From NCBI GenBank assembly GCA_958496175.1, contig OY292277.1:8742001-8806000 (forward strand): a stretch of DNA of 64,000 nt, read 5' to 3'. Positions 3,389 to 62,307 of the stretch are shown here, one piece after another (within the stretch, counting starts at the first letter, position 1; each line of letters starts with the position of its first letter). The translations under genes and the position numbers were made by a program. The notes below the pieces were generated by a model. That model had not been told where the DNA came from. It was given only the letters and a program-made list of their open reading frames with translations, and did not search any database. This DNA is from Sisyra terminalis. Lineage: Eukaryota; Arthropoda; Insecta; Neuroptera; Sisyridae.

Positions 3389-5435
3389 ATAGCAAAAGTT
3401 TCAGTAAATTCTGAAAAATTCTTAATTAGAACTTGTTGATCCTAAAGAATAAAATTTTGATCTATGTATTGAAATCTTGACGGAAAAGTAAGTTAAAACA
3501 AAAGAAGCATATTTCAGCTTTTGAAAAAACCGAAATCTTAAATGCATTTACCTGTAATATCTTAAAAAAAAGTACAGTCTTGAAGATTAAGCTTTAGTCT
3601 TTGATATAAATGAAGTAGAAACCTGTTTCAATTATATCAAAATGATAAATTTGATCTGTAAATTGACCAAAATTTGTAGATAATTTTCCTGTAAATATTT
3701 TTGGGTGTCAAATTTATAGATTTCTGATTCAGTTAAGTTTAAATAATATACGTAAATCTTTAGCTAATGTTTAAAAAAATCTTTCAGAATCATTGCTTAA
3801 ACATACTTTGATTGCCAAGCAACCATCTTAAGTAATTATCAAGGAAAGAACTATTTTTTTTTATTAGAAAGGCACATCTTTGACTTTGGAACATGATTTA
3901 ATTAAGTAACCAATTTCTCTGTTGATAATTGTTTGGTGTTTAATTTGGTTTATTATTTCAAAATTTGTAAGAATCTTGGTAAATATTTTCAATATTTGGC
4001 CTTCGAACGCATCGCTCATTTGACCAATAAGATGATATTATTGGATAGGTACATCAATAAACAAAATTTTCGAATTTGATGCGTTCTTATTGAAACACCC
4101 TTTATGATTGGAATTGGCATTGTTGGAAGATTGTACTTAATATATTATTGTTAATTTAGGGATCTTTTTTAATTTTTAATTGTTAACTAAGGTCTATAGC
4201 GATTATAGGGTCAAAAAAAATCTAAAGTCCAGAAATATTGAAAATTTGCTCGCTAGTTTTGAAGTGGTCACCAAGACCACTCAACCACTTGTAAGCATCA
4301 TTGGTAATCTTGAATTTTATCATATTGTTTCTTAATTTATATTACAATTTTTAACACTTTTGTCTGTCTTTTTTTGAGGTACTTTTGTTTCTACTATGAT
4401 AGTAATATAAGCACTATGATTTTTTATAGAAGCCTGATGAAGTTACGATAAGTAACGAAACGTAGCTAATTGAATAATAAAAATATTAAATAAAAAAACC
4501 GATCTTAAACAACCTGAGTTGTCTTCTTATTTAAAAAAATAAAAGCTGAGATCTGAATTTTATCATCTACTATGATTGATGTAAAAGATTTGGCAACAAT
4601 TTTTTTACATAATTATTAACAGGACTTGCATCATTTTCAAACAAAAAAACTCATTATTTAGTAAATATCTGCATTTTTCTCGAATCGATCTCTTATTTGT
4701 CATACTTCGATTTCATTAAATTTTTTTTTACGCCCCCCTCTCATCCCAAACTTTCCCATTGTTGCACCGGTGCATCCCACTTTTCCCGTCACATCATCAC
4801 TTTGCATCGGGACAATATTATGTTTCATATGCACACAAATATTATGACGATGATGATGATGAAGTTACAATAGTCGACGAGTTGAGAACATAAATGGGGG
4901 GTTGGAGGACACAATAACGATAATGTTGGGGAAGTTGATGACAATGACGATAATATACGTCTGTGTTTATATACGACCATTGTTTTAAGCGATTCTAACC
5001 TCAACAGGGGGCAAAGGAAAGAAAAAATAAAAGGAAAAATTTGGCTTTTGAGCTTTTCGATTCGTTTCAATTCTATAGCCCAAAAAAAAATTCAAACCGA
5101 ACCAAATGTAATTTTGTAAGGGGGAAAATTGTTATTTGAATGGTTTCAATAAGAAAATGCAATAATTAAAAAAAAAAAACAATGTTATGTTGAAGAAAAG
5201 AAAAGCTCAAACAAAAGCGTCTGAATGATAAAACCACGAGTGCAACGGTTGCACTTTTTTCATTGTAATGAAAATTAAATACGAAGAAAAAATGCATTTC
5301 TTTCCTATTCATTTTGTGTGTTATTATTTGATTTTGTATTTAGAAATGCAGTTAATTAAAAGCTAGCGTATGCATTTTTCTGCATAGTATTCTTGTGTGC
5401 TTTGGAAGAGCTTTTTTCCGTCATTGTTTTGTGAG
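3389..5435. other. No gene seen
   Basis: Apart from the hammerhead-like repeat, this is A+T-rich sequence with a GATGATGAT microsatellite near 4848. The frame at 4825-5070 overlaps it and is not supported. Confidence 0.4.
4400..4570 (+). repeat. Repeat with hammerhead-like core (CTGATGA...GAAA)
   Basis: Contains CTGATGA at 4434-4440, a five-base-pair hairpin GTTAC/GTAAC, then GAAACG. Similar to 34540-34866. Probably the end of a Penelope-like or similar retroelement. Confidence 0.5.
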
Positions 5436-29300: not shown

Positions 29301-32300
29301 AGTGTGCTTTAGAGGTAATTATTTTTGCTTTTTGTTTTTTTCGTATTGGAAGCCATCTATTGTTGAATTCATAAAAGTACTGTTTGATGTATTGCCGTTT
29401 TTTTTATGGAATATTGAATTGTGAAAAAAAAGAGCAGAGAAAAAAGCTTTAATTACGTTTATGATTGACGAGCTTTTCTCTTTTCGTCGGTCGTTATAAT
29501 TGTTTGTCTCTTTTTCTTATTTATACGTTTTTTTTTGTTTTTTTTTTTTTGAGGAAAATTGTAAGAATTGGACTTTCAAGGGACCAATTCATTTGACAGG
29601 GTAATTTTATTTATGATGTGGGAAAAGATATGATTGTTCTTTTTTTTAAAGCTTGAGCTTTACGTGAGCTTTCATCTTTTTACAAGTTTTACTTGTTTAA
29701 AGAAGCTAAAATATTTTTTTATAAGCTTAACCCAATTTACTTAGCTAAGTTAAAAGAGGACTAATTGTGAATATTTAGAAATTTTTTCAGCAATCAAAAG
29801 TTTTCTGGTTGGTCCTAATGATCTTATTAATATTTTGCATAGCAATTGGGGTATCCAAACCAAATATAAAATAGACTTGAATAAAATAATGCTTTAGACT
29901 ACCAAAATGAAGAAGCTTTGTTGAACTTGGTTAACCAATAGAAAAATTTTCATAATTGATATTTTGCAAGCTTTACATAGCGATTGGGGTATTAAAATCA
30001 AAAATAAAATTGGATTGAATAAAATAATGCTTTAGATTACCAAAATGAAGAAGCGTGGGAAAAGATATGATTGTTCTTTTTTTTTTGAAAGCTTGAGCTT
30101 TACGTGAGCTTTCATATTTTTACAAGTTTTACTTGTTTAAAAGAGGCTAAAATATTTTTTTATAAGCTTAACCCAATAAAATTAGCTAAGTTAAAAGAGG
30201 ACTAATTGTTAATATTTAGAAATTTTTTCAGCAATCAAAAGTTTTCCGATAGGTCCTAATGATCTAATTTATATTTTGCAAGCTTTGCATAGCGATTGGG
30301 GTATTAAAATCAAATATAAAATTGGCTTGAATAAAATAATGTTTTAGATTACCAAAATAATGAAGCTTTGTAGAACTTAGTTTACCAAAAGAAAATTTTT
30401 CAATTTTACTCTTTTTTTGAGGTCTTCCGTATTGCCTAGGATATGTCTTTTCTATTATTTTCTTTCTCCCTTATTCCTACTTATTGATGGAATATATCCC
30501 ACACTTTCCTTCTTACAAGAACAAAACAGTTGAAAGTATCTAAAGTACAAGAAAAAAGAAAACCGCCAAATGATTTCCACCATACAATAATAAAACATGT
30601 CGTTGACAGCACGATAAATGATTCTTAATTACTATTTTGCTCGAATGGAGAAAATTTCATGATGCTTCTTTTTTTGAGCTTTATAAAGCTCTATTTTCCC
30701 TCACCATTTAATATTAAATATTTTATTGGATTTATTGAAGATGATAAATGATGAATGCAATGCTTTTAATTTATGCGGAGTTGGGAAAGTGGCTCTAGTG
30801 GCCACCCTGACATTTCCCATTTAGTCCGTATAGTTTGTGTCCTGTTTTATGTGGTTCGTGTATGGTAAGTGCATCATATGTGCTTACAGGAACAATGCAC
30901 TTGAGCCATTTTAGCATTAGGTTCGTTAGCCGTTTGGGTCTTTAGAGAATGTTGAATGTTGAGACAATGAGGTGAGGTGGGTTAAGCCATTATTAACGTG
31001 ATACGAGATCGGATTCTATAATATTCACGTAATGCACTCGGTTCACTTTTAGTGCATCGTTAATTGTTTCAGGGTGTTCAAGGAAATGGAAAAAAAAATG
31101 CATAAGTCGTAAAGTAGCCTAAAACTACTGCTTTTTAATTTAAAAAATTCAAATGCATGCCATTTTTTTTTTTTTGAAAATCATTACCGCTTTAAAGGTA
31201 ATTCTTTTGGAACATTTTTCCAAATCAATTTTTTCGTATAGATGGGAAAATTAACAGGTGTCATTTTTCAAACCTTAACAATAGTTGAATACGATCAAGA
31301 GCGTTGGTATTGGCAAAACAGTTAACAATCTGTGTATATAATATATATTAGAGTGGTCCAAAAAAAAAGTTTTTGCCTATCATCTTAAACGCTTTTCTAA
31401 GGTATAAAAAAAAATCCCTCTAAAGCGCAGGTTGATATCTTGATTCTCCACAAAGCTCAATGAATGTCTATTTTCCTATTTAAATAACACGTAAAAAATT
31501 GTTTTTACGTTTTTATTTGGTAAAACTACGAAAAAAATTTTTTTGAATTTTTCATCATTTATTTTTGTAGGAAATTTAATTTTCTACAAAAATGTATTGA
31601 GGTAGTTTTTTCGTAATTCTAACGGGTAAAAAGTTATCAAGCTTTAAAACCGCTACTGAGCAAATTTGACATTGATAGTTTCAAAGTAATTTTTTGAAGG
31701 AATAGACAATATTTCAAGATAATTTAATAAATTTTCATGGATTTGAAATAATTCTCAACTTTTTGAAAATTTTTTTGGTGATTGCATGTATTTAATTCAA
31801 AACTTATCAAACTCTAGACTATTTATAATATAATTAACAAATGTTTTTGGCGAAGTACGAACTGTGAACTATGAATGATTGTTTTTATTACAATTTGGAT
31901 AACTTTTTCCCCATTAGAATTACGAATAAATAACTGGAGTACTATTTTGAAGAGAATTCAATTTCCTACAAAAATATTTGATCCAAATTAAAAAAAAAAT
32001 CTTAGTTTTACCGGATAAAAACGTAAAAAAATGGGAAAATAGAAATTTTTTATGCTTCATGAAGAATTGAGATATCAAGCTGCGCTTTTAACGGATTTTT
32101 TTTTATACTTAAGAGAATCTTTTTAGACAATAGCAGTTGAAAAAAAAAATTTTTTGGACCACTCTAATATATATAGAATAAATTATAAAAGTTCAAACAA
32201 AAACAATTTTTTTTTTAATTTCTGTAGATTTTTATATATTTTTATATATTGTTATATTAAATTATACTACATAAATTGGACGACAATATATTCTATATAT

Positions 32301-35300
32301 TATATACACAGTATAACTGTTCAAAGTCAGCGAAAAAATCTTATTATAAGTTAGCAATCGTTTAATGCAAAATTCAAACTATACATTGAATAGATCAAAT
32401 CTTTCAAATCAAATTCCTGCAACTTCCGTCATCAAAGTTATGTAAAGACTAATATTATTTTTGTGGAACATTTTACGCCTCATTTCTGACCTCTACGGGT
32501 CAATTATTGATTACAAGTGACCCAATTTTGGGCAATAAAGATCTCAAGTAAGCTTTTAACTATTGGATACGATCCATATCTCAGCAGTTTTAAAACTAAA
32601 GCATCCCATTTTTAGCACATCTTAACAATAGTTTTATACGATCAAGAGCGTTGCAATTGGCAAAGCAAATGACAATCGTTTAGTAAAAAATCTAAACTAT
32701 AAATTGGATGGATCAAAACTTCCAAACCTAATTCCTCTAACCTCTGCCAGGTCATTAAAGACATGAAAAGCTTGATATTTTTACAACTTCTTCTACTCCT
32801 CAATTTTGGTCTCCACTGGTCAATTGTTGTTTACAAGTAATCCAATTTTGGACTTAAAGGGCAGAAAGAAGCTTTCAATTAATTCAAGTCTTGAAATTAA
32901 AAGGTACCCTTTTATAAGCATCTATTAACCATTGTTTTATGTGATCAAGAGCATTGGAATTAGCAAAACAAATGACAATCGTTTCAAGGAAAGTCCCAAC
33001 TAAAAATTGGATTGATTAATACCTCCCAACCAAACTCCTGCATCTTTTTCCAGGTCATCAAAGTCATGTAAAGTTTGATATATTTCTCACGGAACACAAT
33101 TTCTTCTATTGTACAAGATTGGTCTCCACTGGTTAATTAATGTCAACAAATGGTCCAATTTAAGGAAATGAAGGTTTGAAGTGGGCTTTTAACTATTGGA
33201 TACGAGCACATGGTGCACCATATCTTTCCAATCTTAAAGCTAAAAGGTTCCATTTTTGAAACATTTTTAACACTTACTTTTTATGATCAAGAGCGTTAGT
33301 ATTGACAAAACAGATGACAATCGTTTGGTGCAAACTATAGGCTGAATGTGTTAAAACCTCCAAGCCAAACTCCTACAATTTTGGCCATGTCATCAAAGTC
33401 TAGTAAAGTCTGATAGTGTTTTTGTTGAATACTTCTTCTACTGTATAGTTCTGGTCTCCACTGGCCAATTTTAGTTTAGAAGTGATCCAATTTTGGGTCA
33501 AAAAGTTTAAATTTAGTTTTTAACTCTTGAATACAAGCACATGATCTTCCGTATCTTTCCAGCGTTAAAACTAAGGTCTAATTTTTCTAGCATTTCCTTA
33601 CAGTAGTTTTATTAGATCAGGAGCGTTGGCATTAGAAAAACAGATGACAATCATTTAGTGCATTGTTTCCTAATCTGTGGTCCGCGGACCCCTGGGGGTC
33701 CGCGAGTCTGGGGGTTTGGCGGTCCGTGATCCCATTTGAAAAAAAATATTTTTGTTTTTAAACTTAATAAAAGAATACTAAAATATAATATTGTCCGAAA
33801 ATTGCACCTTTTTTCACTCAGGAGTCCTTGGCATTATGCTTGATTTCCTTGGGGGTCCGCGGCTGAAAAAGGTTAGGAACCGCTGACTTAGTGGAAAGTC
33901 TAAACTATAAATTGCATAGATCAAAACCTACAAACCGAACTCCTGCGACTTCCTGCGGTCATTAAAGTTATGTAAAGCTTAATGTTGGTTTTGTGGAACA
34001 AAACTTTTTCTATTGCCTAATTTTAGCCTCCACTGATCAATAACAGTTTGCAAGTGATCCAATTTTGGACTCAAAAGTCTGAAGTAAACATCTTACTATT
34101 GGATATGAGCACATGGTGATCCATATCATTCTAGGCTCAAAACTAAAACTTTCTATTTTTCAAGCATTTCTTTACAATGTCTTTATACGATCAAGAATGT
34201 AGACATTTGCAAAATAGATGACAATCGTTTGGTGCAAAGTTCACACTATAGGCTAAATTTATCAAAGCCTCCTCACAATACTTCTGCAACTTTAAAAGTC
34301 GTTAAAAGTTAGACAATGTTTTTGTAGAACATAACATCTTTTTCTACCTAATTTTGGTCCCCATTGATCAATTACTGTTTAAATATGATCTATTTTTGGG
34401 CGAAAAGTTCTGAAGTAAGCTTTTAGCTTTTGAGTACCAGATCTTGGTGCACCATATCTTAAGAATCTTATCTTTAATCACTTCAATAGCTTTGTATGTG
34501 ATAAACGTTAGTAGATGATAAAATTCAGATCTCTGCTTTTATTAAATAAGAAGCCAATTCAGGTTGTTTAAGATTGGTTTTTTTATTTAATATTTTTTTA
34601 ATATTCAAATTAGCTACGTTTCGTTACGTATTGTAACTTCATCAGTCCTCTTGAATCACAAAAAATATAATATTTTCAATTTAAATTCAATAAATTTATT
34701 GAATTTATTTGAATTATTGAATTTAAATTGAAAATATTATATTTTTTGTGATTCAAGAGGACTGATGAAGTTACAATACGTAACGAAACGTAGCTAATTT
34801 GAATATTAAAAAAATATTAAATAAAAAAAAAGATTTTAAACAACCTGAAGTATCTTCTTATTTAATAAACGTTAGTATTCTTTTTTTAACAAATATTCAA
34901 AAGAAAAAAGTTTCCTGAAAAGAGTATTTCTGTCTTTATTATTTATGAATGAAAAATTTAATGAAGTGTTTAATGGCGATGGAAGTTGAGAGTATTTTTT
35001 CGGGAGTTTACAGGTGGTTAGTTTAAAGTTTACGTATTTTTTGAAAGTTTTAATAACAACGTAATTACGGTAATAGAAGGAGCTGAACATTCTGTAGCTG
35101 ATGTGCTTGTGTACAAGTTATGTTTCGCTCTACACCGATATCACCCCTTTCCTAAGGGTAGATGGCAGTAATAATAGGTGGTTATGCAATCTATACACCT
35201 TATAGCCTCGGGGTGCATAGTTAGTTATATTAATACATCAAGCGGGCTATAGTATTAGAATTAAGTCTAAAATGGAATAGTTGCGAGGAAATGAGACGGG

Positions 35301-38300: not shown

Positions 38301-41300
38301 ATTAAATCTTATAGATGTATGTGTATGTTTCTTTTTTTATTGCCTCTTTTTGTTTCCGTTTCATAAAATTTCAAGTCGCAACAATCCTAAAGAAGTTTTC
38401 ACTTCAAAAATAAAGATGCTTTATTTGGAGAACAAAGTGTTTAACTTATATAAACAAATTAGGTGCAGCAATGCTGCAAAAGTCCTCTCCCCCATTTTCC
38501 CATTTCTTCCTCTTTCATTTTCTTAAATATATCCGCCACTTAACACAATATTAAGAAGCTTTCTCGACAATAACTTGAATTAATACAACATAAGTTCTCG
38601 CGTCTCAACTTTGACGAAATCCCTAAGAATCTCTAATCCAATTACAAATCTTTACCGAATTATACAAATCTTCCTCATTTACCCCGTTTACATGGTATCA
38701 GATCGTCCCACACCCGCTAGTCGTGTTGGCAGTATTAACACTCATCCCCTCGTTACTTCCAATATTGTTAACGTTAACGCCTTCACGTGTTTTACCTTAG
38801 GAGCGTATATACTTCTTATACTCAAACCGAACATCAAGCACGTTTACGAAATATTAGACAATTGTTTTTAAGGGATAATATACAGGGAATAATTCCCACT
38901 CTTGTGCTCCCGGATGTTGTCGTATACCTAATGTTCTCTTTTCGTATAGTACCTACACTGTATGTCGCTTATCATCTTGTTCACATCTCTTTTTATATGT
39001 AAGAGTATGTCGTGTCTTCTGTGTATTTGTACAGTTAATTACATTTTGCGTAAATTACTTTCCTGCTATATTTCCCTGGTTGTTTCTAAATCCTATCCTC
39101 TGCAAAACTTACACCTATACTTCTCGTCATCACCACGTTAAATGGTTAGACTCATATGCATTTAAATCTTATATTCTGAAAAAAAAAACTATTTAGTACA
39201 ATCATAGATAGATAAAATTCCAAATATGAGTTTAATCTAAAATTCCTTCCCCCATGAAATTAACTTTTCCAAAAAGAATCCTTTTTCGTTACAACTATTC
39301 GCCAGGATGACAGCCAAAAATTCTACGTTAATTCAGTTTTATATTCAGTTTGTATATAAGTCCGAGAACTTTACATAGAATTATAAAAATATATATTCTT
39401 CATAATTTTATTAGGAAGCACATTATTTGATTTTATTTCACAACCCCTTTCCAAGCACTTAATCGAAGCCTATAGTTGAAAAAAAATTCTTACAAGTAAA
39501 GTCAAGGGAAACCAACAAATTTTGATCAAGAAGCCAGGGAATAGGAGTTAAAGGAAAACATTGATTTCCTGTGGAATATTATGTGCAATACTATTAATTT
39601 ATTCAAGCTTTTTTATTGTTATAACATTATATAAAGCATATTGTGGTATTATTTAAATGTTAGAATTTATCAAAGTAAACTATAAGCATTCATTATTACA
39701 AATCTAACTAACTAATCTCAAACAAATATTTTTTTGACATATCTTCTTGACACGTATTTCGATTGTCAAGTAATCTTACTCAGTTGTCACCAAGTAGTAT
39801 TGGATCATTCCATAACAGGTATGTAATGAGTCACCAGACCAAATTTGAGCTTTTTATTGTTAAAGTTATTGTACTAAAGTTTACTAAAGTTTACTAAAAC
39901 TTGTATTTTTGACGTATCTTTCTGATACGTATTTCGATTGCCAAGAAATCTTCCTCAGTGTTTATCAAGTAGTATTGGATCGTTCCATAACTAGTATGAG
40001 ATTATTTATTGGCTATATGATTATTTGTTTAAAAAGTTTTGATTTTTCTAGCGACTAGCAAAAATATTTTCTTAATTTTCATTACTTTACATCTATTAGA
40101 AATCATTTGGGAGTATATTATCCATTTTCTCTAGAGTTTTATCATGGAAAATTGTTTATAAGAAACTAAATGGAGTTTTGTGTAAAAAAAACAGTTTTTA
40201 ATTTTTTTCAATATGGCGTACCGTTTTATTTAAATTTAAAAGACTTATAACTTTAAAGCAAATTGGATGGGAATTCGAAAAAAATTATCACGGTTAAAAA
40301 TTAAAAGAAAAAGGTCTCTGTTTTTAAGGATCTTAGCAACCAATAAAGCTCTTAATTTTTTTTCTAGAAGGTACCATCAGCCTTTATAACATATCCAAAA
40401 TTCAAATTAATCGATTTACAAGTTTCTGAGATTTTTTTTTTCTGATTTCCAGTTTTTTTCGATTTTTGAAGAAACAGTAATTCATTAGGGTCTGAAACTT
40501 TTCGAATCAATGTATCTTAATAGTACCAACATACCCTGAAATTATGAATCAAATACCCTTCTCGGGCCGATTCACTATACTTATCGTCCTATGTCCTTTC
40601 AGAACGTTACTTTTTTTCGCTGTCTGCTTCACGTGAAATGCCCCAATAATCGGAAAAGAACTGCAAAACCTAGGAATTTAAAATTCGGTTCGAATTCGGG
40701 CTTTCAGCCTGAAAGTTCCAAAGCTTGCACCCTTAACAATGGGATTACATTGTATGGTTCCTAGATTTCCCCTTGCTACTAAGACTATTTCAAAGCCTTT
40801 ACGAAAAGCTCCTGATTTTTTGGTAACAATTGTCAATTACACATAATCGAATGGTCTCAATACTCGATTATTAAAATTGGACTACTCTTTGGAAGAATTC
40901 TGCTTAGTTATAATCGTTGTAGTTTTGATCCCCGTTATAGCTTTTCATGTCTTAAGTTGCAATGTCTATACAATATATAGAATACATTGGGGTCCAATTT
41001 ATGTAATATAATTTAATATAATAATATATAAAAATCATACCATAAACATAAATTTGAACAGAAGTTCAAACAAAAATATTTGTAACGTATTGGCCAGATA
41101 CGTATTTCGATTGCCAAGCAATCTTCCTAAGTGGTCATCAAGTAGTTTGGATCATTCCATAACTGATTTGTGATGATTCACAAAATCTTATTTTGAATAT
41201 TTTTCGCATTTATTTCGTAATTATTACATATACATAATTCCCAAATGTCTTTTTTCTAAATCAATAAATATTTCAATACTTTGCTACAGAAAACCATATT

Positions 41301-44300
41301 TTATTGAACACTGAAATCTTGCACTTTTATTGAAACATCCTTTAGTAATACTTTAAACAGTACAACTTTAACTATACAACAACAGTAAAAAAGTAACATA
41401 AACAAAAAGAGGTTAAAAATGATTTAATATAGTTATTATCAAATCGAATTTTTTTTGCTACCTGTTGATAGGTATTTTTTTAAACCAGTTGACATCTGAA
41501 ATCTTTATCATTGAATCTTAATTATAGGACACTTCTTTAGTAGATGCTTAACGAAATGATTTCCTCCACATTTACGACATTTATAGTGATTCCAATTATT
41601 AGTTGAAGATGGACTAGTTTTGTACTCCCAATACAAAGTCGGTAAAAAATCATTCTGTATATTTCTTCCAGAAAAGTCACAACCTGGAATTGGCTTCTCT
41701 ACCAGCCTCCTATCTTAGTACAATTTTTGTGGTTGATTTCACCAGATTTGGTTCCAGTTGTTAATTATTGGAATTAAAAATTATTTTTCATTGGAATCCT
41801 AAGATAATGATTCCTTTTTGTGGTTCACTCATCTATTCAAGCGCTCCGACTCTAATTATTTTTCGCAGTTTATACAGAATATAGAATATATTGTGGTCCA
41901 ATTTATGTAGTATAATTTAATATAATAATATATAAAAATCATACCAGAAACAAAAATTTGAACATAAGTTCAAACAAAAATATTTGTTACGTATTGCCCA
42001 GATACGTATTTCGATTGTCAAGCAATCTTCCTCAGTGGTCATCAAGTAGTTTGAATCACTCGTAACTGCTTTGTGATGATTCACAAACATCAAATATTTA
42101 TTGATTTATAAAATAGACATTTGGGGATTATGTATATGTAATTATTACAAAATAAATGCGAAAAATAATCAAAATAAGATTTTGTGAATCATCACAAAGC
42201 AGTTACGGAATGATCCAAACTACTTGATGACCACTGAAGAAGATTGCTTGACAATCGAAATACGTATCTGGGCAATACGTCGCAAATATTTTTGTTTGAA
42301 CTTCTGTTCAAATTTATGTTTATGGTATGATTTTTATATATTATTATATTAAATTATATTATACACAGTATACCTGTTCAAAGTCAGCGAAAATATCTTA
42401 TTTTGATTAAGTTGCAATGTTAATATTGCATTTTATGCAACGGGAATATTCTTAGAATTTGAAAAGTACATGCACTACCTTTTAAGCTCAACAATTGCTC
42501 ATTTTCTCAAATGATTTTCCTAGCTTTTCTTTCCAACAGTAGTAGTCCATCTTCTTACCCTCACAGTGGTTGCACAACCTCTGCAATTATTTCCTTTTTT
42601 TAATTCGCATTTCATATTAAAATATCAACAAAAAAAAAAATATTAAAAAATGTAAGTACATTTTACATTTCTCATACCTCATTTTAGTGCTTGTATAAAA
42701 GGGAATGTTGGGACGGCGGGGGGATGAAAAACAAAAGAAAACTAAAACAAATTTCAACTACATACTTCTTTTTGTGGACACATTTCGTTTAAGCGCCACT
42801 GCGGCTGTCGTTGCCGTTGCGTATAGAATTTAAATATGAAACTATGTAATTGGTCTGCTCGTTTTTTTGTCATAAATGTTTCCTCATCATACGGTTTTTA
42901 TTTATTTTCTTTCCCAATCCCGCGACTAGAAGAGAGTTGCCGAGATTTTCGTTCGCTTTTGTATATGTACGAATTGTATGACGTATTTATATACACGAAT
43001 ACCAGCATATATACACTTAGTGTATGGTACAAGACGAATAAAATTAAAATAGAATTCATTATTATTCAGAGAAATTTTTCATTTGTTCAACAAGAGGGCG
43101 TTGGGGGGATGGGGCAAATGTGGGGAGTACAAAAAGAGTCCGGGGGATATGGAATTCGGGAATGGGATTGAATGAGGAATTTGTGCATATACCAGCTGTT
43201 ACCTCTGCTGGATGAATGAAAACGACGCTAAAGTGTTACCCTCTGGATAAACCTCCCCGTCATCCCTCCACGAAATTCACTTTTCGTTTTTAAGGACTCG
43301 TAAAATTTCCAGTCCCGAAAATCCCGTTCGCATAACGCGACGGCGTATTTAAACGAATCGTAGTTTGGTCTCGCAATGGAAAGTTGTCAAATGATTTAAT
43401 TAAGGGCCCGTTAATTTTATAAAAATTTTTTTTTTCTGTTCTTCAGAGCAAAGACGTTAAATATTCGGATAGTAAGGTTGCATTAAATAATTTCCTTGAA
43501 AACGTACGAGAAGCTAAGTCTGACTTGCGATGGATTCAACGTATGGCTAATCAACAGGAAAATTCGAGACCAAACCAAATGAGATTAGATAGGAAAAATG
43601 TAAGCTTAAAGCTTAGCAGTTAATTTATGTTAAATATAGTAATTTTTTTTGTATATAAGGGCTGAAGGCTAATGTTGGTGAAAGAAATTAAAATTCTGGA
43701 AAAAAGTATGATTTCTGGTCCTTTTTCCAAATCTAAACAATCATTTTCCTAAATAAAGCTTTCTATGATTTTTTTTTGTCTTACTTTCAAAAGCTCATAT
43801 TTTTTTAAGTAATTCTTTTGTTTTTTTGTTATTTGGTTTCCATGGCAATTTCGCATTCTATATAACCGTAAAATTCATATAAACTTCAAATTTTCAACTC
43901 TACCGTTTTATATAGGAATGCAATATGCAGTTGGAGTGAAATCTTTGAAAATTTAGAAAGAAGAAAAGCAATTAGAATCTTTATCTTTCGATATAAAAGT
44001 AAATGAAGGGAAACTTATTTAGAAAACAGGCAATATTTTGATTGAATTTCAACCCCTAAAGTTATAGTAACTAAAAAGCTAAGAAAATTAAGTGTTGAAA
44101 TCTTTTTGTTCATAAAAATTTTCATCTTTTTTATCATTACACCATTTAAAAGTTAAATTTTGCTATTTTCAAAGGGTTTTTTGGGCTAAAAATAAATCAA
44201 ACTTTTTTCTTAATGGTTTCTATTTGATTTTCATACAATTTGAATTATATTTTTAACAATATTGACTTTTAAATGATCTTAGATTGAGTACTTTATTAAG

Positions 44301-47300
44301 TTCCAAAAGGCGACGAAACGTCGTACGGAAATCAAATAGAAATCATTAAGTTGAATTCTGCAATTTTTCAATAAACAAATAATATTTAGAATTAAAAAGG
44401 CAATAGGTTTTGAAACATTAAAAATTTAAGAGCATTTTTCTTGGTGAACAAATTTAATTGCAATATTTGTGCTTTTTACTGATAAAAATTTAAAAATTTC
44501 TTTTTAACTTTATAATGTACCACATGTACCAACAAAAGCGGAAATCCCGACTAGAAATTATTTTGGGAATGTCCAAGGTATCCACCTGACTCACATTGAG
44601 CCCCATGGGGCAGGTCTAAAAAGAAAATTCCTATTTGGACCCAATATGATTCCAAATTGGAAGTTCTAATGGAAAATACAAATCATAAGTCAGTTTTTCT
44701 CGATTGGTTTCTGTATGGGACCCTAGTGAAGAAGGGCATTGTGAAATTTAAAAAAGTATTTTCAATTTTTCCCCATTTGGTCCGATGTAAGTCTACAATG
44801 GTGAATCCAAATTGGAAATTTTAATGGAAAATCAAATGTTAGTTTTTCTCGGTTGATTTCTATTTGGGACCCCAGTGAAAATGGCCATTGTGAAATTTAA
44901 AAAAATATAATCAGTTTTTCCCCATTTGGTCCGATGTAGATCTACAATGGTAAAATTCGACGAAGAAGCTTAAAAAAATTTTGCCTGTTTTTCGCCATTG
45001 GGTTCAATGTTGAACCACCAATGTTGGGAAGGTTTTGCATAAAGTACGTTTTTAATTGAACCCTCTGGAAATTTTAAAAGTTAACTTATGCAACCCGTTA
45101 GGATCTAATCCGTTATATAAGTAGCTGGATAAGTTCTGAATAGTTAGTACTAGTCTTGTATACAGGTAGTACTCAAACAACGTCGTCGTAAAAACACTCG
45201 GAATTCATCGGTGGTCCAAAATTTATGAAAGAATTTTCACTATATCAAAGTAAATTTTTCTGCTGATTTTTAACAGTTATACTGTTTATATATTAAATAA
45301 ATAAAATATTGTGGTCTTATTCATATAATATCATTCACAAAATTAAACAAAAAACATAAATTTAAATTCAAAAGTTTAAACAAATGATACGTATTTCGAC
45401 CGCCATGCAATATTCTTCATTAGTTCCTTAGTGGTAACTGAGGAATGGATCATGAAATCTGGACGTATATTGAGGAACTTCGTCAATGAGTATTGGCTGA
45501 TCCTCCAATTTCAATCATGAGACTAAAGAATTATTATAAATTTTGGGAAGAGGAAAAAATTACTTGGGAAAATTTATTGGAATAGCCCAATTTTGGCATT
45601 ATTGGGATTGCCCAATTGTAGCCCAAAATTTGGGTTACTTCCTAGAGTCCCGATAAGGTAATCCAATATGGAACCACTAGGGCTCATTTGAAAATTTCTA
45701 GTCGGGATTCAGCTCCTAATGGCAGTACAGAAAAAAAAACATGCTTTTGTATGAAATTTTTGAGTGGAAATTTAGTGCAAAATTTTACCCCTTTACCCTC
45801 TTTCCCATTTTTCCCCTGTACTTTTCAAGAATACTTTCCGAAAGTTTTTCTCCCCCGCCACTCTTTTGTCTCTTACTAAATTTTACCCTTTGATTTGAGA
45901 AAATTTAAAATATCAAATTACTACTAAGGCTGTAGGTTGCTACAAAATTTGGCCATCTTTTGTATATTTAGTTATATGCTTCTTTTTTTTCTCCTCCTTT
46001 CATCTAACATAATGGAGTAGGAAAGTTTAATTCGGAGAGAAAGTTATTTGGGAAAATGACCATTTAGGTATCGGATACGGGGAATTAATTAGAACTCCAT
46101 TAAAATACTTACACGACGTTTAATTTCAGAGGCAAAATTTCGAACTCGATATGGTTCGATCGAATTTCAACCGACGAAAACTGTATGGTTTCGATCAAAT
46201 GGACAATACCGCTCAAAAGTTCAACTACGAAAATCATCCCGTTTTGGAACGTTCAATAAAAAAAGATATGACCAAAGAGTTGAAGTCAATGCTCAAAAGT
46301 GGAACCCCCATATCGGAATCAATCGGTTCGGCCGATCAACTAAGTTTGCGAAGAAATCCCCAGCATGAAGTTCCCTTTGACGTGGGCGGCCACAATTTAC
46401 CTCTTTCCCAAAACCGACTAAATGAATACAATTCGGAGGCCAGTCTCAACCGCCATCAGAGACATCTAGTAAGTCAGGATAGTGTTAACGACTACGACAA
46501 TGGAATGACTGGAATGATTCCCGTTCGTGGAGCAGACCGAGGAAAAACTGACGAAACTTATTTTACTTATAAACGAGGAGAATCCAATCAGGAGGTTCCA
46601 CAACAAAAAATTGACAAACGTGAAAGTTCCGAAGACAATTATGATGAGGAAGACGAAAATGAGGAAAGTTATGACGAGGAAAATGAGCGTGGAGGGGTGG
46701 GAAATGAAGAAGATGAGGAAAGTGATCAGGAGTATGATAACTATGATGATTCGGAATTGGAAAATGATAGTGCTAGTGCCGTTGAAGAGGAATATGATGA
46801 TGATATGACTGATAACAGTGAAGCGGAATTGCATCGTTCATTTCGGAGTTCAGCTGACCGAAATGGTCGTAAAGTCGACAAAAAAAATAGTCACAATGCT
46901 AGTTTTGTGCCAAATAGTCCACAAAGTTTTGATAAGGATTTAATTAAGCAGATTCAAAGTGATGCCGAACTTATACTTACAAATTTTTCCAACAATATAC
47001 GAGCACTGCAGAGGAATTCTCCACATATGATTGGCAATCATCCAGGAAGTTTAATGGAGAAAAATGAAAACCATAATGCATCGAGGTTGATTGATTTGAT
47101 TCAAATGAATGAACATATAATTCATAATTTGAAGCGTTTAACGAAAAATGAGAAACCACCGTCGAAACGGCTGGAAAAGTCTCAATTTTCTCGGAATCCC
47201 GGTGATAAGAAAACCATGGTGCCTCAGGGAATTGGAAAATTAAAACGTGATTCCGATAAAGAGACACACTCTTATAATACACCTGCGTTTGCTAATACTA

Positions 47301-50300
47301 TTATGAATAAGATTCGGAATATTGATAATGAAGTGATTGTGAAGAAAAATGAAAAACCGGTCCAACTTGATGAGGATAGTGGGAAGGTAATGGTGCCTCG
47401 GACTGTTTGTAGTGATCCGATTAATAGTAATAGATCGGATCGAGAAAGGGATAATTGTGGGAAATTAAAAATCAATCATCTTCCGTGTAGGGATAGTTTT
47501 GATGATGCCGATTTAAGGGTATGGAAGTTAATAAACGAAACCCTGAAGACTCCTAGTACTTTGAATACAAAAGTTCACATTTCAGAACGTTCACCATTGG
47601 GATTGCCATGCTCTCCACCTCCGCCCATAATTACAGAATACCGGTGCAACAATAAATGCGTTCAAATTCCCAATCGAATGCTGAATCCATACGCTCAACC
47701 AACTGTACCACCGATTGTAGTAATGACCCATCAATTGAACCAAGATAATGTTGATGTTGTTAAGCGATCAAAGTTTTATAAACATGATGAACCAAATATT
47801 CCGGAAAGTTATCGAACCAAAGAGCCGCCTTCAACTCTGAAGACTGAAGATGTACCGTTGGATGATACAGCACTGGAAAAATCCATCGCCAAACTAATAA
47901 CGAAAAATTCGGAAAAAGATCTCAAGGAATCGGAAAATTTGGCGAAAGACGATAATATTGTGGAAGCCAATTCCAAAGAGTTTTGGAACACCGCGAATTT
48001 TGTCGGTGATTTTACGAACAACAATGAAATCTCCGACACGGCAATGAAAGATCCACGATTGTTTCACCTGTGGGACGCGAAAATTGAGTCGAAAGAAAGT
48101 GTCCTAAATGAACCGGTGTCCAAGTTGAATTCGTTGATTCAACTGGATAAAGTGATATCCGAAACTGCAACGATTTCCACGATGAACAACAATATGTTTG
48201 ATTCCGGGGAAAATCATTATTTTTCCGGTCAAAATCCAAATTTTCTTCCGAATCCAAATTTCGCTAACAAATATGGTCGTAAGGAGTCCATTTCGGATAT
48301 TCAACGACGCTATCCGGTCGCCGCCGCGTATCCTCCAGGTCAATCGAAATTTTTCGTGAAACATCCCAACTTATACGGAGTGTCATCTCATCCAGATTTA
48401 GATTCCAACTATAACAAATTTTTATATAATCCACAAATCAATCGATTCAAAGGACCAGCCGATGTGGTTCCAAATATGTTGCCTCAAAACACAAATTTCA
48501 ATACGAAAAATGATTTAAATTTTCAACCATCGAATTTGACAAATCAAATTTTTCATCCCGGCGAAAGCGTTCCCCAATCAATTTCACATACGATAGTAAC
48601 ACCGGGTACCGTACAATTACCGTTGGTACCATCAAAATTGAGTTCCCAAACAAATGAACTCATACAAAAGACAAATCTCAACAATCAATTTTCTTCGTCA
48701 AACAATGATGTTTCGGCCGAAAAAGCTTCGATAAAATCCTCGAATTTTGCACCGAACACCAAACTCCAAGCATTTGCCAACCTAAATCCATCACAAAGCG
48801 TTACAAAACTCAAAGAAACACCGGCGAAAAGCCAAAATTTCGAAAAACGCAACGAAGATTCCATTAAATTTCGCAAAGCTCTCGTTGAGCATGCAAAAAA
48901 AAACGCCAAAATTCTTCAAATGCAACGTGAAAACTTCAATTCCGACCCAAAACCCGAAAATTTCCATTTTCTAAAATCGGTTCCTATTTATCCATACTCA
49001 AATATACCAAAAACCAGTTATCAACTTAAGCAAAATGTGGTCTCCTTAAAAAGTAAATTGCACCATAAATTCACCGATACGGTGCAGAAGAATTCGAAAT
49101 TTGATGTGGGTGATACCAATGAGTCGGAGGCACCAGAAAATTCCGAAAACTTTGAATCGACGCTCAATCGTAATGCCAATATGGTGGAACCAAGTGGAGA
49201 GGTTCCCAACCATTTTATGGTTCTCAATGAATCGCAGGGCACATTTTATAAGCTAGGAGATATCTCAAATGGTAAATCCAGTGTGATGATAAAACAAAAT
49301 AAGGAAATGGATCCAGCTTTAATTTTAGGATATGGCAAAACTGGACTTACATCGCCTTACAATAAAAACGACATCGTAATAAATCCACCAGTTTTCTTCA
49401 GTTATCGTCATCAGGCTACTGAAGATCCAACGGTTGGTCAAGTTATCAATATAACAGATATCAAACCAATGAGTTTTGATGCTAATTTCAAAACGGTCAC
49501 CTTCCATAAACCTGATAATCCGACCAACTTTAAAATTCAGTTGATGATAACACCGGATGGAGAGAAGAAATATCGCAGAGAAACGGATTCTACGAAAGAT
49601 AAAGTTAATGATGATTCCGAATCTGAAGAGTTGGAAGATCCGGAGGATTCAGAATACCAACAAGTTTCATCTTATGACTATGAAAATAATGAAGATTATT
49701 CCAATGAGCACAATGGAGCCAATTTGGTTAGATCTCGACGATTACAATCGATTGAAAATCCTCCATCAAATTTTAGTGATACCAATGAAACGAGTACCAA
49801 CCTTACCACGTTTATCGTACCCTCGAGGAATTCCACTGCAAAAATTGATTCGTTAAATCAGACATTGTTGAGACCTAAAAGAGATTTAGGCCATTTTTTG
49901 GGAATGGATGAGGACGAAAGTTATCAAGATGAGGCCAGCAATGATTATAAACCACCCAAAAATGCATACGATGAAGAATCCTATAACAGTTTAGATGATG
50001 ATTTAAACGAAAAAAAAGAGCCGGAGAAAGTTAACATTGAAAATTCTGAGACGAAAAATTCGAAATTGCTGGCCGAAACAAATACGGATTATGATTCAGA
50101 TGTGGAAGAAAGTCATAGTCTTGAAACTCCGTCGAAACGTATTAAGCACCATAATAAGAAGCATAGAGTTTTTTATAGTGATCCTACCAAGAAAAAAATG
50201 CCTTGGAGCACAGAAAAACGAAGTTCTCCCGATCAAATCGAGGAATCTGAACCAAAAAATCGTCATAATCGGGTGTCACGACGGGATAAGGCTCAAAAAG

Positions 50301-53300
50301 ACGCCCTGAATAAAGAATTGATTGAAAGTATTATAAAAAAAACTAAGGAATTGTTAAATTCGAAAAAAATTACAGATCAAGCAGAACTTACTATTTTGCA
50401 ACATCAAGAAGAAGTCAATGAAGGACTTAATCCCTCCTCGATTGAATACAATCCTGGTTTGAAACATGCCGAGGATACCAATTTGCAAAAGAAGACCATA
50501 CCATTAAAAGGTGTGGAAAAAGTCAATCAAATGCCCGATTCTACCAATGATAATCCCTATGATTTGGGGACTCAAGTAACGGGTGTTTTAGGAAGTCAAA
50601 GTAGAACGAAAAAAAAAGTTGTGACTTCTACAAAGGAGGGGTTGAATAAGTTGGGTAGGGCTTCGAAAGAGGATCAAAAGAAAATTGAGGGAAAGTTGGC
50701 GAACGTGGAAGATTCAAAGAAAGTGTTAAGCAAACGGGATACTTCGAGCAGTCAGGGGAAGATTTTTCATGGGAAAGGATCTTTTTTTGATTTTGGTTCG
50801 GCAAATCGGCGCCGAAATGTGCCGCCGTTGCATCGGTCATTTTTTTTTAAAAGGCACCCCCACCGCATCAAGCGTCGACAACGCCAATATTTTTTAAAGC
50901 ATCGTCTGGGCCACACTCGAAACTCACTCGAAAATCGATTCAGGGAGAAAAAACGTCGAGCGCTGCGTCGTCAGCGTAAATCGCCGCGCCATCATGCCAA
51001 CATGAATTTATCGCCGAAGATGTTCGACTACAATGACGTGCAACAAAAGTATGACGACAATCAGAAAGTAGTAAGACGATCAACTAATGGTGATAAGAAA
51101 AATTCGCAGGGTGAAGTAAAACTTGAGAAGCCACATCTGGGTGATAGTTTAGCGACGGACATCAAAGTGAAATCGTACACGGAAGAGAAGCAACTCGAAG
51201 AGGCGATGACCGGACATTTGGCACATCGGATTGTCGAGTCGGTGTTTCATCATGTCGAGAAATCCAATAAGTTAAAATTTGCAATCGGAACCGGTCTTTT
51301 TCGGGAGAAGAACCACAACGAATCTTCTGTAAGTTGTCCGAGAATTAAACGCATATTTTTGCAATTGCTTTTTGTTCATTTTTTTCTCTAGGTAATGCAC
51401 ACGGATGCAACCATGAATGCTATCAAAACCAATGAAAAAATGTTGCATGACGTTTTGGTGATGTTGAACAAAGTGGTGGAAGAACAAATCAAAATTCGGA
51501 CATGTATCAAGTTAAATCACGACAAGCAGTGCTTCTTGGCATGGTTGACTTCCCATGCAAGTGCTGCATGTGTTGGTTACTCACCGTTCGGCAAAGTGGA
51601 ACAAATAAAATCGAAAGATCAAGAAATTTTTCCTAAGCCCCCAACAAATACGGAGTCTACGGCACCAGAAAATTTTAATCCTTTCATGGTCAACATTCCC
51701 AGTAAAACAGGTATGAGATCTACTTGAAAAAATACCAGCAAAAGACATGAACCTACAAGTCTATTTTACAGAGATATCCAACGAGGAGATTCGTCAAAGA
51801 ATTGAAATTATCGAAAAATTATTGAGTGAATACAATGCTTTACCATCCAAAGAAAAGTCCAAAGTTAAAAGCATACATAAAATTCTGACAAAACATCTAG
51901 AACTACTTTTGAAACTGCAAAAAAGTAAAGAAGATTCCGAACTAGAGGATATCGGCAATAATTTATCCAAAGACCATTTAGGTGTTTAAGTATACCGGCA
52001 CACAAAAAAAAAGTGCTCTGTACTTTTGACCGGACCTACATAAATCTACGTATTTTCACCCCCTGAACACGAATCCGGGGTTGGTTTGACCCGTACACCC
52101 TCAAAATTCGAGAAAACTTTAAAAAACCGAAAAAAATAGTTAAAATCGGCAGTGTTGGTGACATAAAAATTTTTTTTGAACCGAGCATGATTTTCATGTT
52201 TTTCGATCCGCTGAATACAAATTCGAAGTTTATGTAGACCATAAGCCGTTTTTATTGTAAGAAAATTGCCTGCTTTGCGAGCCTGCTTTCGCACTCTGAC
52301 CAGACGCCGACACTGGGGTTCCCAATCCCTGCATCGTAAAACACTTTTCGCTTGTGCCTGCCATGACGGCATATATGCCTTTTACCCAGGTACTCTGCCA
52401 GACGGTTCTGTTGCCCGCCGTCACCACGTGGAGGTGTCCTGGTTACAGACACAAGCGTCCAAACAAGAATTCAAAAATGCTTAAAAGCTACTCTTGCATA
52501 ACTAACTAGCCCTGTACTTAAGTCATTTAAAGATAGACGGGTTCGATATAAGCAAATGACGAATTGAAATGAAAGCAATTGGCCCATTTGTAATTTTCAG
52601 AGATTTTTTGCGGGGAATTTCAATTTTTTTAAAGATTTTGGCCAAATAATCTTCAATATCATATTCCAGAAATAGAATAATATGCAAAATATCCTTTGCA
52701 AAGATATAAAAGTTTATTTTCATCATATAATCTCAAATTTTAGAATAGCCGCAATTTTTTACAATTTTTAAGGGTTTTTTGCAATTTTCTTGCAATAAAA
52801 ACGGCTTATGGTCTACATAAACTTCGATTTTGTATTGAGCGGATCGAAAAACATAAAAATCATGCTTGGTTTAGTTTAAAAAAAATTTTATGTCCCCAAA
52901 ACTGCCGATTTTAACAATTTTTTTCGGTTTTTTAAAGTTTTCTCGAATTTTTGAGGGTGTACGGGTCAAACCGACCCCGGATTCGTGTTCAGGGGGTCAA
53001 AATACGTAGATTTATGTAGGTATGGTCAAAAGTACAGAGCATTTTTTTTGTGTGCCGGTGGTATTAATTCCTCAAGAAACATATTTCAATTTTCATTTTT
53101 TCTTTTTTTTCAGTGATGTCAAAACCATATGAATCAAGCTTGGACTCCACCTTTGTAATTCCAGGTCCGGTAAACGCAGTGACTGATAAAGAGGAGCACA
53201 ATAAATTGGTCGAAAAAAATTTGGAAATGCTCGGATTGGGACCGGAGGGTCCCAATAAACCGTATGGTTTCCCACTTTTGCCACAAATCGATAACGCCAC

Positions 53301-59100: not shown

Positions 59101-59939
59101 CGTGTGTATGGAGAAAACTCGACGTTCCAACTATAGCATAACATAACCGGGGGGGAGGTGAGGCAAGTCAAGTCGGGTAGGAGGCAAACCACCCCCGACA
59201 CAAACTTAAAGCCATCTTTGTCATTTTCATAAAGCGTCTTCACGAACAAGCTTGTCCGCGTTCTTGGTTAATGGAAAATTTAGCCCACTATCCGCCTTGT
59301 CTTGTGGCCACATCTAACAAGTACATAATAGCAGTCTAATAGACTTGGGGCTCTTGCTACCCAAAAAACGAAGACACCCTCTATTTTACATAACCAATTT
59401 TCGATTTTCCCTCCTGCTCGATTCTCATTCCAACATGAATGTTTTCAGTCTCGGCGTGTTTTTAGCCATTTTCTACCATGTATGGTGGAGCTTTCAAATC
59501 TTTTACAATAAACAAATTGGGATTTCTTGTGGGACTTTATATATATAAATATAGATTTTGTGGTGGTCGTGGGGATCATGTTGGGATTAAAGAATGAGGT
59601 AGAAACAATTACAGAGGCGCTTTCTTATTTTCCTATAATTTTTGCGGAAAACTAAAAAATTTAATAAGGTGATTCTTTTTTTTTTATATTCAAGACACTT
59701 GCCTGGATAAAAGCCTTGATAAAACAATTGAAAATTTGTAAATTGAAATTTTTTATCTTCGTTCTTCAGTTTTGCAGTTTGTAATTATAAGTGAACACTT
59801 TCCCTAACTAAATAACAAAAATATGACATAAGCAAAACAAGAAATCAAAACAAAACTCAAAATTTTAGTTTTAATTTGAGCAAACTACTATTTATACAAG
59901 TATAATATATGTGGTAGTCATATTTATGTAGTAAAAAGC
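56176..59939. other. No gene supported
   Basis: A+T-rich intergenic sequence. A fairly non-repetitive, G+C-richer island spans about 58390-59640; short frames on both strands there show no motif. Confidence 0.4.
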
Positions 59940-60835
59940 TTTCGACACTATTTGGCACGAAGGTCTGCTCTATAAATTAACACTGTACAAATTTCCACTC
60001 TACATCATTAAACTAATAAAATCATATCTCTCCGAAAGAACATTTCAAGTGAAAATAGGCCAAAAATTATCTGATGTGCACGCTCTGGCAGCTGGTGTCC
60101 CACAGAGTTCCGTACCAGGACCAGTTCTGTTTATAATATTCTTAAACGACATTCCAGTTAGGAAAAATATTTCAATGTCTCTCTTTGCCGACGACACAGC
60201 AATAGCAGTGTCATCATGGCGCATTGATACAATAGTCAAAAACTAAGCGAAACTTTAGAAAAGTTATTAAAGTACTTCAAGGGATGGAAAATAAAAATAA
60301 ACCTAAATAAAACCAAAGCCATAATTTTTACCAAAGGAAGACCAATAATAAATCAAAAAATCAAACTTGGAAGTATTGACATTGAATGGTCCACTTCATT
60401 AAAATACTTAGGGGTGACTTTAGACCAAAGATTAACATTTACTCTCCACATCAACAACCTAGTACAAAGTAAGGGTCTCATTGTTGCACTTTTTCCTTTG
60501 TTGAACAGGGACAGCGACTTAAGTGTGAAAAATAAACTAATTATTTATAAAGTACTTATTAGGCCAATATTAACCTATGCAGGATTAAGTTGGAGCTTCA
60601 TAAGCAACAGTAATTTTAACAAACTGGAAATAGTGCAAAATAAATTTTTGAGGTTTGCTTTGAATGCACCAAGGTACACGTGGATCCAGGAACTTCATGA
60701 CGGAAGCGAATTACAACTGGTAAAAAAATATTTAAAAGAAGTTTGCCTCAATTTTTTAAGAAATGCAAAGAAAACGAAAATGTAGCAATCAGAAATATTG
60801 AGGCTTATGATCAGAATATAGTGACAAAGCACAAA
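59940..60835 (+). pseudogene. Jockey-type LINE reverse transcriptase, 5'-truncated
   Basis: Starts inside the RT with KAFDTIWHEGLLYKL. Continues AGVPQSSVPGPVLFIIFLND and SLFADDTAIAVSS, which retains the catalytic FADD box. A frameshift at about 60240 leads to LGVTLDQRLTF and the C-terminal region, with a second shift near 60775. Less decayed than the copy at 54689, but inactive. Confidence 0.9.
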
Positions 60836-62307
60836 AAAATAAGATATATTTTATAAGAACTAGTATATTATTGCATTATTTTCTTTTTTTTTCTTCTTTT
60901 TTTTTTATCGAAACCTTGTTGGGTTTTTTAGGTTCTTTTTCCCAACATAAGAAACAGAGAATTTTTTATTTTTAGTTTTCACATATAATTTTATTTTGTA
61001 AGAGGGAAAGAGCAACTGCTCTGGTACTCAAGCTTTTAGTTTTTGTAAATAATAAATTGAACTGTTAATGGACCAATACAGAATTTTATATAATAATGTA
61101 GTAAAATTAACAAATTTAGACTGAAGACTTAAATTTGAACAAAAGCTCTAGCAAATGTATTGCCCAGAAACGTATTTTGATTGCCAAGTAATCTTCCCAG
61201 TGATCATCAAGTAATATTGGATCACTCCGTAACTGCTATGTGATAGTTTTAATTTGATTTGGAGCAAACTTCTCAAAATTTTATTTAGGACTATTCATTA
61301 ACGAATACTTAAGGCGAAAACTAAGCATTTAGACTCCATATTCCCTTTCTTCTAGGATATAAAATATGTTAAGTTTTTATGGATCTTTTCGCTACTTTTT
61401 ACGTACCTAGTTTAAAGTAACGGAAAAAAATGTGCAACTGCAATTAAAGCTCAGCTTTTTTGAGCTTTGGGATTCATGTTTTTCTTTCAATTTGGCGGCA
61501 GCTGTACAATACTTCTGTTAAGTTTAGCTATAGTATTTCGTATTATTAGTAGTAATTAATAATGTTTGTATCTCTTTGTTCCAATGCTCTTTTACTTGTA
61601 ATAGTAAATGAATATAGCAATTTAACACTTTGACGCCTACTAAAGTCTACTATAATGGTATTTTTTAACTTATTTTATAATAACCATGAAGTGGGTAGTA
61701 TATACTTACGATTTTTTTTTGAGGGAAAAAATTTCAATTTCTTAGTTAACCATTGCATTGCATTACCTCATTTTTTGTACAACGCCTTTCCCCTCAAGTA
61801 ATTTTTTGACCAACTTCAAAGACCTTTTCTTCCGGTCCCCAAAACGTTACACCTTACTAATGAAGAACTCCGTTATTAATGTGAAAAAAATTCCCAAGGG
61901 GTAGTTTTGTCAGCAGATTATTAAACACGTCTTTTGTGTGAGTACAAGTGTTTACAAAATTTTCGTCCGGTGTGGAAAAGGACAGTCACAATATCGATTC
62001 AAAGTTCCAAAAAGGACAATTTTCATGTGCAAGAAAAGTATAAAAGGGATGGTTTTTTTCGTTCCAAATCAACTGTAAGTTGTTAATTGAATCGTCCTTA
62101 ATGAATCAAAATAAAAATACAATGCATATAGTAGCTAACTCCTTGGATAAATGTAATGGAAAGTTAAGGATGAAAAAATTACATGCAGCAAATTTGCCTT
62201 CAATTTGGTCGTTTTTAAGGGGGTGAGTTTTGGGGAGATAGTGCAGGCAAAGGGGAGAAGAAGAATTGTACTATTTACTTCGTATATTCATGTCTATTAG
62301 TAACAAA
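60836..62307. other. No gene seen
   Basis: Non-coding A+T-rich sequence outside the degenerate terminal repeat at 61060-61250. Confidence 0.4.
61060..61250 (-). repeat. Degenerate Penelope-type terminal repeat
   Basis: The same family as 41865-42075, but the hammerhead core has lost a base (CUGGGA) and GAAA has become AAAA, so it should not cleave. Confidence 0.6.

Follow-up and report, generated by a model that had tools for sequence, protein, structure and literature searches.

A candidate dimeric hammerhead ribozyme with a palindromic stem III in the pseudo-LTRs of a Penelope-like element of Sisyra terminalis

The window, by which we mean the whole stretch of 64,000 nucleotides of Sisyra terminalis DNA analysed here, contains at 40966-42406 an insertion made of two direct pseudo-LTRs (pLTRs), one inverted pLTR and a one-sided tail, bounded by 14-bp repeats. 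The two direct units were located by the profile on the minus strand, at 40955-41184 (copy 1, model 2-231, with the short, tail-less outer end) and at 41861-42087 (copy 2, model 2-229), and the inverted unit, which has the tailed outer end, on the plus strand at 42181-42405 (copy 3, model 2-261). Comparison of the letters with the two kinds of unit end places the 39-nt tail at 42368-42406 on the plus strand, at one outer end only. The flanking repeats, both TTAAGTTGCAATGT, lie at 40952-40965 and 42407-42420 and represent a target-site duplication of 11-14 bp, since the pLTR unit may contribute the last 3. Random flanks drawn from the window share at least 13 letters in 0.02% of draws, and copies 2 and 3 taken as a pair alone give a flanking match of only 7 letters. 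The 676-bp stretch between the direct pLTRs (41185-41860) includes an inverted repeat, 41185-41273 matching 42092-42180; no PLE protein match was found in it at E up to 1, and its longest frame has no Pfam match above cut-off. A frame of 68 aa on the minus strand of this stretch (41511-41714) shows a CxxC...H...C pattern; no Pfam match to it exceeded the cut-off.

Inside the pLTR of this Penelope-like element (PLE), the letters of the 64-kb window spell out a minimal type I hammerhead with a palindromic stem III, referred to here as family A. In the plus-strand copy at 42228-42274, the stem I strands UGACCA (42228-42233) and UGGGCA (42269-42274) enclose the core box CUGAAGA (42234-42240), an extra A between A9 and stem II (42241), the stem II hairpin GAUUG-CUUGA-CAAUC (42242-42256), GAAA (42257-42260), the palindrome AUACGUAU (42260-42267), whose first base is the last A of GAAA and which is the putative stem III of a dimer, and C17 (42268), the predicted cleavage-site base, with cleavage expected at 42268/42269. 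The minus-strand copy at 41995-42041 also has an intact core (CUGAGGA followed by the A) and a predicted cleavage after the C at 42001, and a further minus-strand copy, at 41092-41137, has a damaged core (CUUAGGA). The CUGANGA ... GAAA ... NUH arrangement of a hammerhead core is present in family A, both in these letters and in the genome-wide pattern described below. An earlier note on this DNA had reported two intact cores, one damaged core and an 8-nt self-complementary stem III, and the letters agree with it on all of these; its description of the stem I strands as complementary was slightly generous, as 5 of the 6 positions of 42228-42274 pair and one is an A.G mismatch.

When up to 3 mismatches were allowed, the core pattern matched the window 5 times, against a mean of 0.03 in shuffled sequence. 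The full descriptor, which adds to the core a stem II, a palindromic stem III and a stem I of at least 3 pairs, gave three matches, two of family A, which are the intact copies above, and one of a second family, B, against 0 in 60 dinucleotide shuffles. Older pLTR copies, not named in the earlier note, were recognised by the profile on the minus strand at 39616-39836 (core CUGAGUA, with G8 changed), 39894-40006 (a fragment with intact core letters), 45252-45451 and 61035-61247 (both with damaged cores), and a pLTR fragment without a hammerhead lies at 32206-32345; stem I pairing was looked for in the copies at 39616 and 39894 and none was seen. Family B regions, also absent from that note and identified by the descriptor and by a covariance model, are at 4420-4481 (plus strand, hammerhead at 4434), 34598-34659 (minus strand, the head-to-head partner) and 34748-34809 (plus strand), and the family B insertion at 34501-34877 is a head-to-head pair between 13-bp repeats ATAAACGTTAGTA at 34501 and 34865. 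Elsewhere in the window, LINE-like RT fragments are found on the plus strand at 59935-60785 (RVT_1, E 7.4e-13 for the first piece and 0.00038 for the second), and a 1,755-aa stop-to-stop frame at 46124-51391, also on the plus strand, has acidic low-complexity stretches and no Pfam match, and is perhaps an exon of a host gene.

Of the 200 matches of the pLTR-unit profile, 8 lie in the window and the other 192 are spread over 90 of the 91 loci (numbered L below), some of them doubly counted where loci overlap. Because L031-L090 had been picked by core patterns, 10 anchors of another locus and 5 duplicates were dropped from the 104 units, leaving 89. Neighbouring units no more than 600 bp apart are mostly head to head (62 of 83 after deduplication, 68 of 91 before), direct neighbours also occur in the deduplicated set (-- 12, ++ 8, some of them pieces of one split unit), and the inner junctions between paired units vary. 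Both outer ends could be seen in 42 head-to-head pairs, counted before deduplication: the ends are mixed, one short and the other tailed, in 37, both short in 4 and both tailed in 1, so that mixed pairs are far above the 21 expected for independent ends (P ~2e-7), as if both cDNAs of one insertion begin at different sites. Flanking repeats of at least 8 bp were found in 11 of these 42 pairs, compared with 1.9% in shuffled flanks; this is a lower bound because misplaced unit ends hide some repeats, the 12-letter repeat of L003 being one that was missed.

Other loci have coding sequence for a PLE protein adjacent to the unit. L011 holds an open frame of 376 aa in which YVDD and GIY-YIG motifs can be read and which stops 124 nt short of the unit; Pfam RVT_1 and GIY-YIG match it at E 0.016 each, both below the cut-offs, and a protein search gave 374 homologues, with many of the 120 listed annotated as RVT_1, some also as GIY-YIG, and those listed with an organism name coming from insects. 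In 8 of 90 loci (L009, L011, L013, L026, L029, L056, L082 and L084), the PLE protein terminates 123-130 nt ahead of the unit; two of these, L026 (E 0.001) and L013 (E 0.053), give a short and weak match, yet at the same distance. Where the RT ORF begins was not located here, and the window itself gave no PLE protein match. This RT and GIY-YIG coding sequence upstream of the unit in other loci, together with the inverted pLTRs, the one-sided tail and the target-site repeats, bears out the Penelope assignment of the earlier note. A genome search with the GIY-YIG Pfam model gave a single match, which we read as a host SLX1-like gene and set aside, the PLE enzymes scoring below the cut-off. By our reading L026 and L072 also contain another frame with GIY-YIG-like motifs, without a Pfam match in L026, and a hammerhead-like match lies on the same strand 221 nt (L026) and 241 nt (L072) past the stop of that frame.

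The exact core of family A, defined genome-wide as CTGANGA, a 16-nt spacer and GAAATACGTATC with N7 free, is found 4,766 times in the 376.6-Mb genome and 0 times as the reversed control. With a 15-nt spacer there are 140 matches, and again 0 for the reversed control; among 100 listed strings of this shorter kind, about 12 lack the A itself when judged by eye, some being ambiguous, and most of the others have their deletion elsewhere. The extra A is consequently the usual form of family A. In the 89 deduplicated units, the most variable position of the motif is N7, the free core base, which is changed in 15 of 59 (G 44, T 10, C 3, A 2). The 3' strand of stem II, GAAA and stem III are changed at 3.3-3.8%, against 6.7-9.1% in the flanks, whereas CUGA (7.3%), GA (6.8%) and the 5' strand of stem II (7.7%) do not fall below the flanks. 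Changes in stem II within family A (74 distinct rows) are one-sided, with a compensated pair in none, and one row (L032) has the first stem I pair changed on both sides.

Eight families of hammerhead, A to H, have stem II sequences that differ and yet pair: GUUAC(G)/(C)GUAAC in B (window 4434 and 34.6-34.8 kb, L007, L050), GUUGC/GCAAC in C (L057), GGUC/GACC in D (L071, L038), GUUGG/CCAAC in E (L045), GUCA/UGAC in F (L026, L072), GUCAG/CUGAC in G (L074) and GCAAUA/UAUUGC in H (L032). Families C, E, G and H are each a single locus, and stem II is not paired throughout in the second copy of F (L072). When A, B and C are taken together (12 distinct rows), 95% of stem II cells pair and 3 of the 5 pairs are changed on both sides, while a control with slid partners showed no double changes. 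The compensatory changes foreseen in the earlier note are thus absent from stem II within family A and present between families. Around the cleavage site, stem I has 2-3 inner pairs in 7 of the 8 family representatives; in that of family C, inner stem I pairs were not found.

The extra A after CUGANGA is present in 8 of 8 families, and the cores of F, G and H have one changed base each. The first finds of families B, D and E came from a descriptor in which stem II must pair and 0-2 inserted bases are allowed, and that of C from the same descriptor without stems I and III; one inserted base is present in all 8 descriptor rows that are not of family A. A covariance model that itself contains the extra A yielded F, G and H, and the pattern that tabulates the eight families demands it too, the letters themselves being shown separately. 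In the loci this covariance model, built on B and C, recovers D (2.3e-9) as well as F, G, H and E; in the window it does not recover family A up to E = 10. It also gives weak matches at window position 44280 (E 0.018), in L028 (0.01), L024 (0.42) and L026 at 1190 (0.46), and at further window positions up to E 10; the L028 match was rejected as a hammerhead as it has no GAAA, and the window match (44280-44335, plus strand) carries GAAACGUCGU with a core that is not intact. A match to the Rfam hammerhead models, proposed as a check in the earlier note, did not appear, either at the gathering threshold in the window and six loci or at E up to 10 in 40900-42500. Rfam matches to plant miRNAs were discarded, being below their cut-offs and tracking the long inverted pair, and so were four stretches of viral contigs that fit a loose pattern, three of them identical, in which stem II pairing was not seen.

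In the usual hammerhead consensus stem II follows directly on A9, and the hammerheads of families A-H deviate from it by one extra A. The earlier note had marked this A as in need of testing; it proves to be a family trait and not a defect of the window copy, given the excess of the 16-nt over the 15-nt spacer and its presence in every family. Nor do we take it to exclude membership of the hammerhead class, because an active hammerhead with the same deviation is described: according to the available text of PMC3705267, an extra, unpaired A separates A9 from stem II in the plus-strand hammerhead of chrysanthemum chlorotic mottle viroid, which is active, with a moderate drop in trans-cleavage rate. 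That hammerhead belongs to a viroid RNA, and ours to a retroelement.

Folding predictions separate the monomer from the dimer. For two strands of 42226-42276 (51 nt each), the lowest-energy fold is a double hammerhead of -16.3 kcal/mol, in which stems I and II form and the palindromic stem III has 8 pairs. For a single strand of the same piece the hammerhead is not the best fold, which has -4.5 kcal/mol, compared with -0.2 kcal/mol for a hammerhead with a 2-pair stem III. With 11 nt more (42220-42281), the single strand prefers a hairpin between ACGUAU and a second, downstream AUACGU, and in the dimer these ACGUAU and AUACGU segments pair across the strands and the AUACGUAU stem III is not formed. 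The dimer fold of the shorter piece and the compensation between families support the hammerhead reading with which the earlier note began.

By sequence and covariation, the motif is a hammerhead of a real PLE with several thousand copies. We consider that 42228-42274 is the hammerhead of a GIY-YIG PLE, located in its pseudo-LTR and putatively acting as a palindrome-joined dimer, and we give this reading a probability of about 0.8. It draws on the sequence, the PLE anatomy, the adjoining protein in other loci and the stem II compensation between families, all of them observed; self-cleavage after C17 is predicted. Since stem III would be too short within one RNA, two hammerheads would meet through the AUACGUAU palindrome, forming 8 pairs, and each core would then combine the CUGANGA/GAAA strand of one copy with the cleavage site of the other, each cutting after C17 (42268 on the plus copy). 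In a minus-strand transcript of this insertion, the damaged copy at 41092-41137 could serve as substrate for the intact one at 41995-42041. Following A9, the extra A would stay unpaired and be tolerated by the fold. The palindrome, the dimer fold and the published dimeric PLE hammerheads suggest action between two molecules, and two direct pLTRs of one transcript could also pair. The likeliest use of such a cut would be on multimeric or read-through PLE transcripts. Not one of the 89 units begins 3 nt or less from the cleavage site (before deduplication, 0 of 104), where 1-2 would be expected with 40 truncated starts evenly spread, and there is therefore no sign of cut RNA as the insertion template.

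The most serious competitor is that of a fossil, in which an ancestral hammerhead was active, family A no longer cuts owing to its weak stem I, extra A, AUC triplet and competing hairpin, and the core is kept by descent alone. The lack of units that begin at the cleavage site fits such a history, as do the preference of the slightly longer piece for the competing hairpin and the 5' half of the core, which varies no less than the flanks; moreover, the portion of PMC11167929 available reports that cleavage by the Anolis PLE hammerhead required protein, although its authors cite PLE hammerhead self-cleavage at 3-25 mM magnesium. Against a fossil stand the position of N7 as the most variable of the motif, the variability of GAAA and stem III at about half that of the flanks, the double-hammerhead fold of two strands of 42226-42276, and the recurrence of the extra-A core in eight families, although three of them (F, G and H) have one changed core base. 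We regard loss of activity as improbable, at odds of about one in seven.

Two further explanations do without a ribozyme. The motif might be conserved as coding sequence, since a frame (ATG ACC ACT GAG GAA ...) continues without a stop from the stem I ATG through the motif, for 41 codons, up to a TAA, and the hammerhead of the Anolis PLE overlaps the start of its ORF in the text available of PMC11167929. Codon positions 1, 2 and 3 are nevertheless changed at 7.5, 6.0 and 4.5% (unit positions 50-97, N7 excluded, deduplicated units), without a third-position excess, the commonest change at N7, G to T, alters the residue, and stem II is compensated between families, which together make a coding origin very unlikely. 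Even less probable is a foldback DNA transposon (MITE) with hammerhead-like letters within long terminal inverted repeats. The prevalence of head-to-head neighbours within 600 bp (62 of 83, deduplicated) is what one would expect of it, but the outer ends are of two kinds and mixed in 37 of 42 pairs, inner junctions vary, direct neighbours occur, even if pieces of one split unit account for some, and an RT-GIY-YIG coding sequence lies upstream of the unit. Metazoan retrozymes, which are direct tandem repeats, do not fit the mostly head-to-head orientation of the units.

Hammerhead motifs of PLEs were reportedly described by Cervera and de la Pena in 2014 and by Lunse, Weinberg and Breaker in 2017. 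As summarised in the accessible parts of PMC6155905 and PMC7761336, minimal type I hammerheads with a weak or missing stem III are known in PLE pLTRs and act as dimers, and the window hammerhead is accordingly of a known kind; it shares with them the minimal type I form and the pLTR location, and would share a stem III too weak to form in one molecule and action as a dimer; the extra A is a feature of the families described here. Repeat-type hammerheads, such as that of Aedes aegypti, likewise have a palindromic stem and loop III that would pair in a dimer, and are described, in the sections available of PMC3088659, without mention of PLEs or of an extra A after A9. Metazoan non-LTR retrozymes resemble our units in carrying type I hammerheads in repeats of 170-400 nt, but, from what is available of PMC7229834, these are direct tandem repeats, whereas here we find mostly inverted pairs with a PLE tail. 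The layout of the window insertion, with two direct and one inverted pLTR, one tail and a short target-site duplication, is that of the Penelope of Adineta vaga, for which the available text of PMC3846280 gives direct and inverted pLTRs, palindromic head-to-head junctions, a 31-bp one-sided tail and 8-10 bp duplications; that element has a low copy number, and the word 'hammerhead' is absent from the main text. For PAc, the Poseidon element of Anolis carolinensis, the extracts of PMC11167929 explain the tail by two RT start sites, with an AC-rich stem-loop there, and place a hammerhead at the pLTR-ORF junction that needed protein to cut; uncut RNA was the main substrate, in line with the absence of unit starts at the cleavage site here.

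A 2020 review, in its available text, calls the in vivo activity and role of PLE hammerheads still a mystery (PMC7761336). That in vivo role becomes testable in a genome such as this one, where exact copies number in the thousands, several families coexist and the insertion ends are clear. We tentatively propose, at somewhat under even odds, that the PLE hammerheads of this lineage may form a distinct dimeric class in which CUGANGA and a fixed unpaired A would be a working part, kept while stem II, and mostly stem I too, changes from family to family, with a cut that would serve something other than the insertion template. The parts we consider worth following are the extra A common to the families and the mixed-end rule, the latter being a usable constraint on PLE insertion. 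The short unit end is located in a possible hairpin, TATAC-ACA-GTATA, and in some units of L035, L036, L046 and L073 the TATATATTATTATATTAAATT segment ahead of this end forms an expanded repeat.
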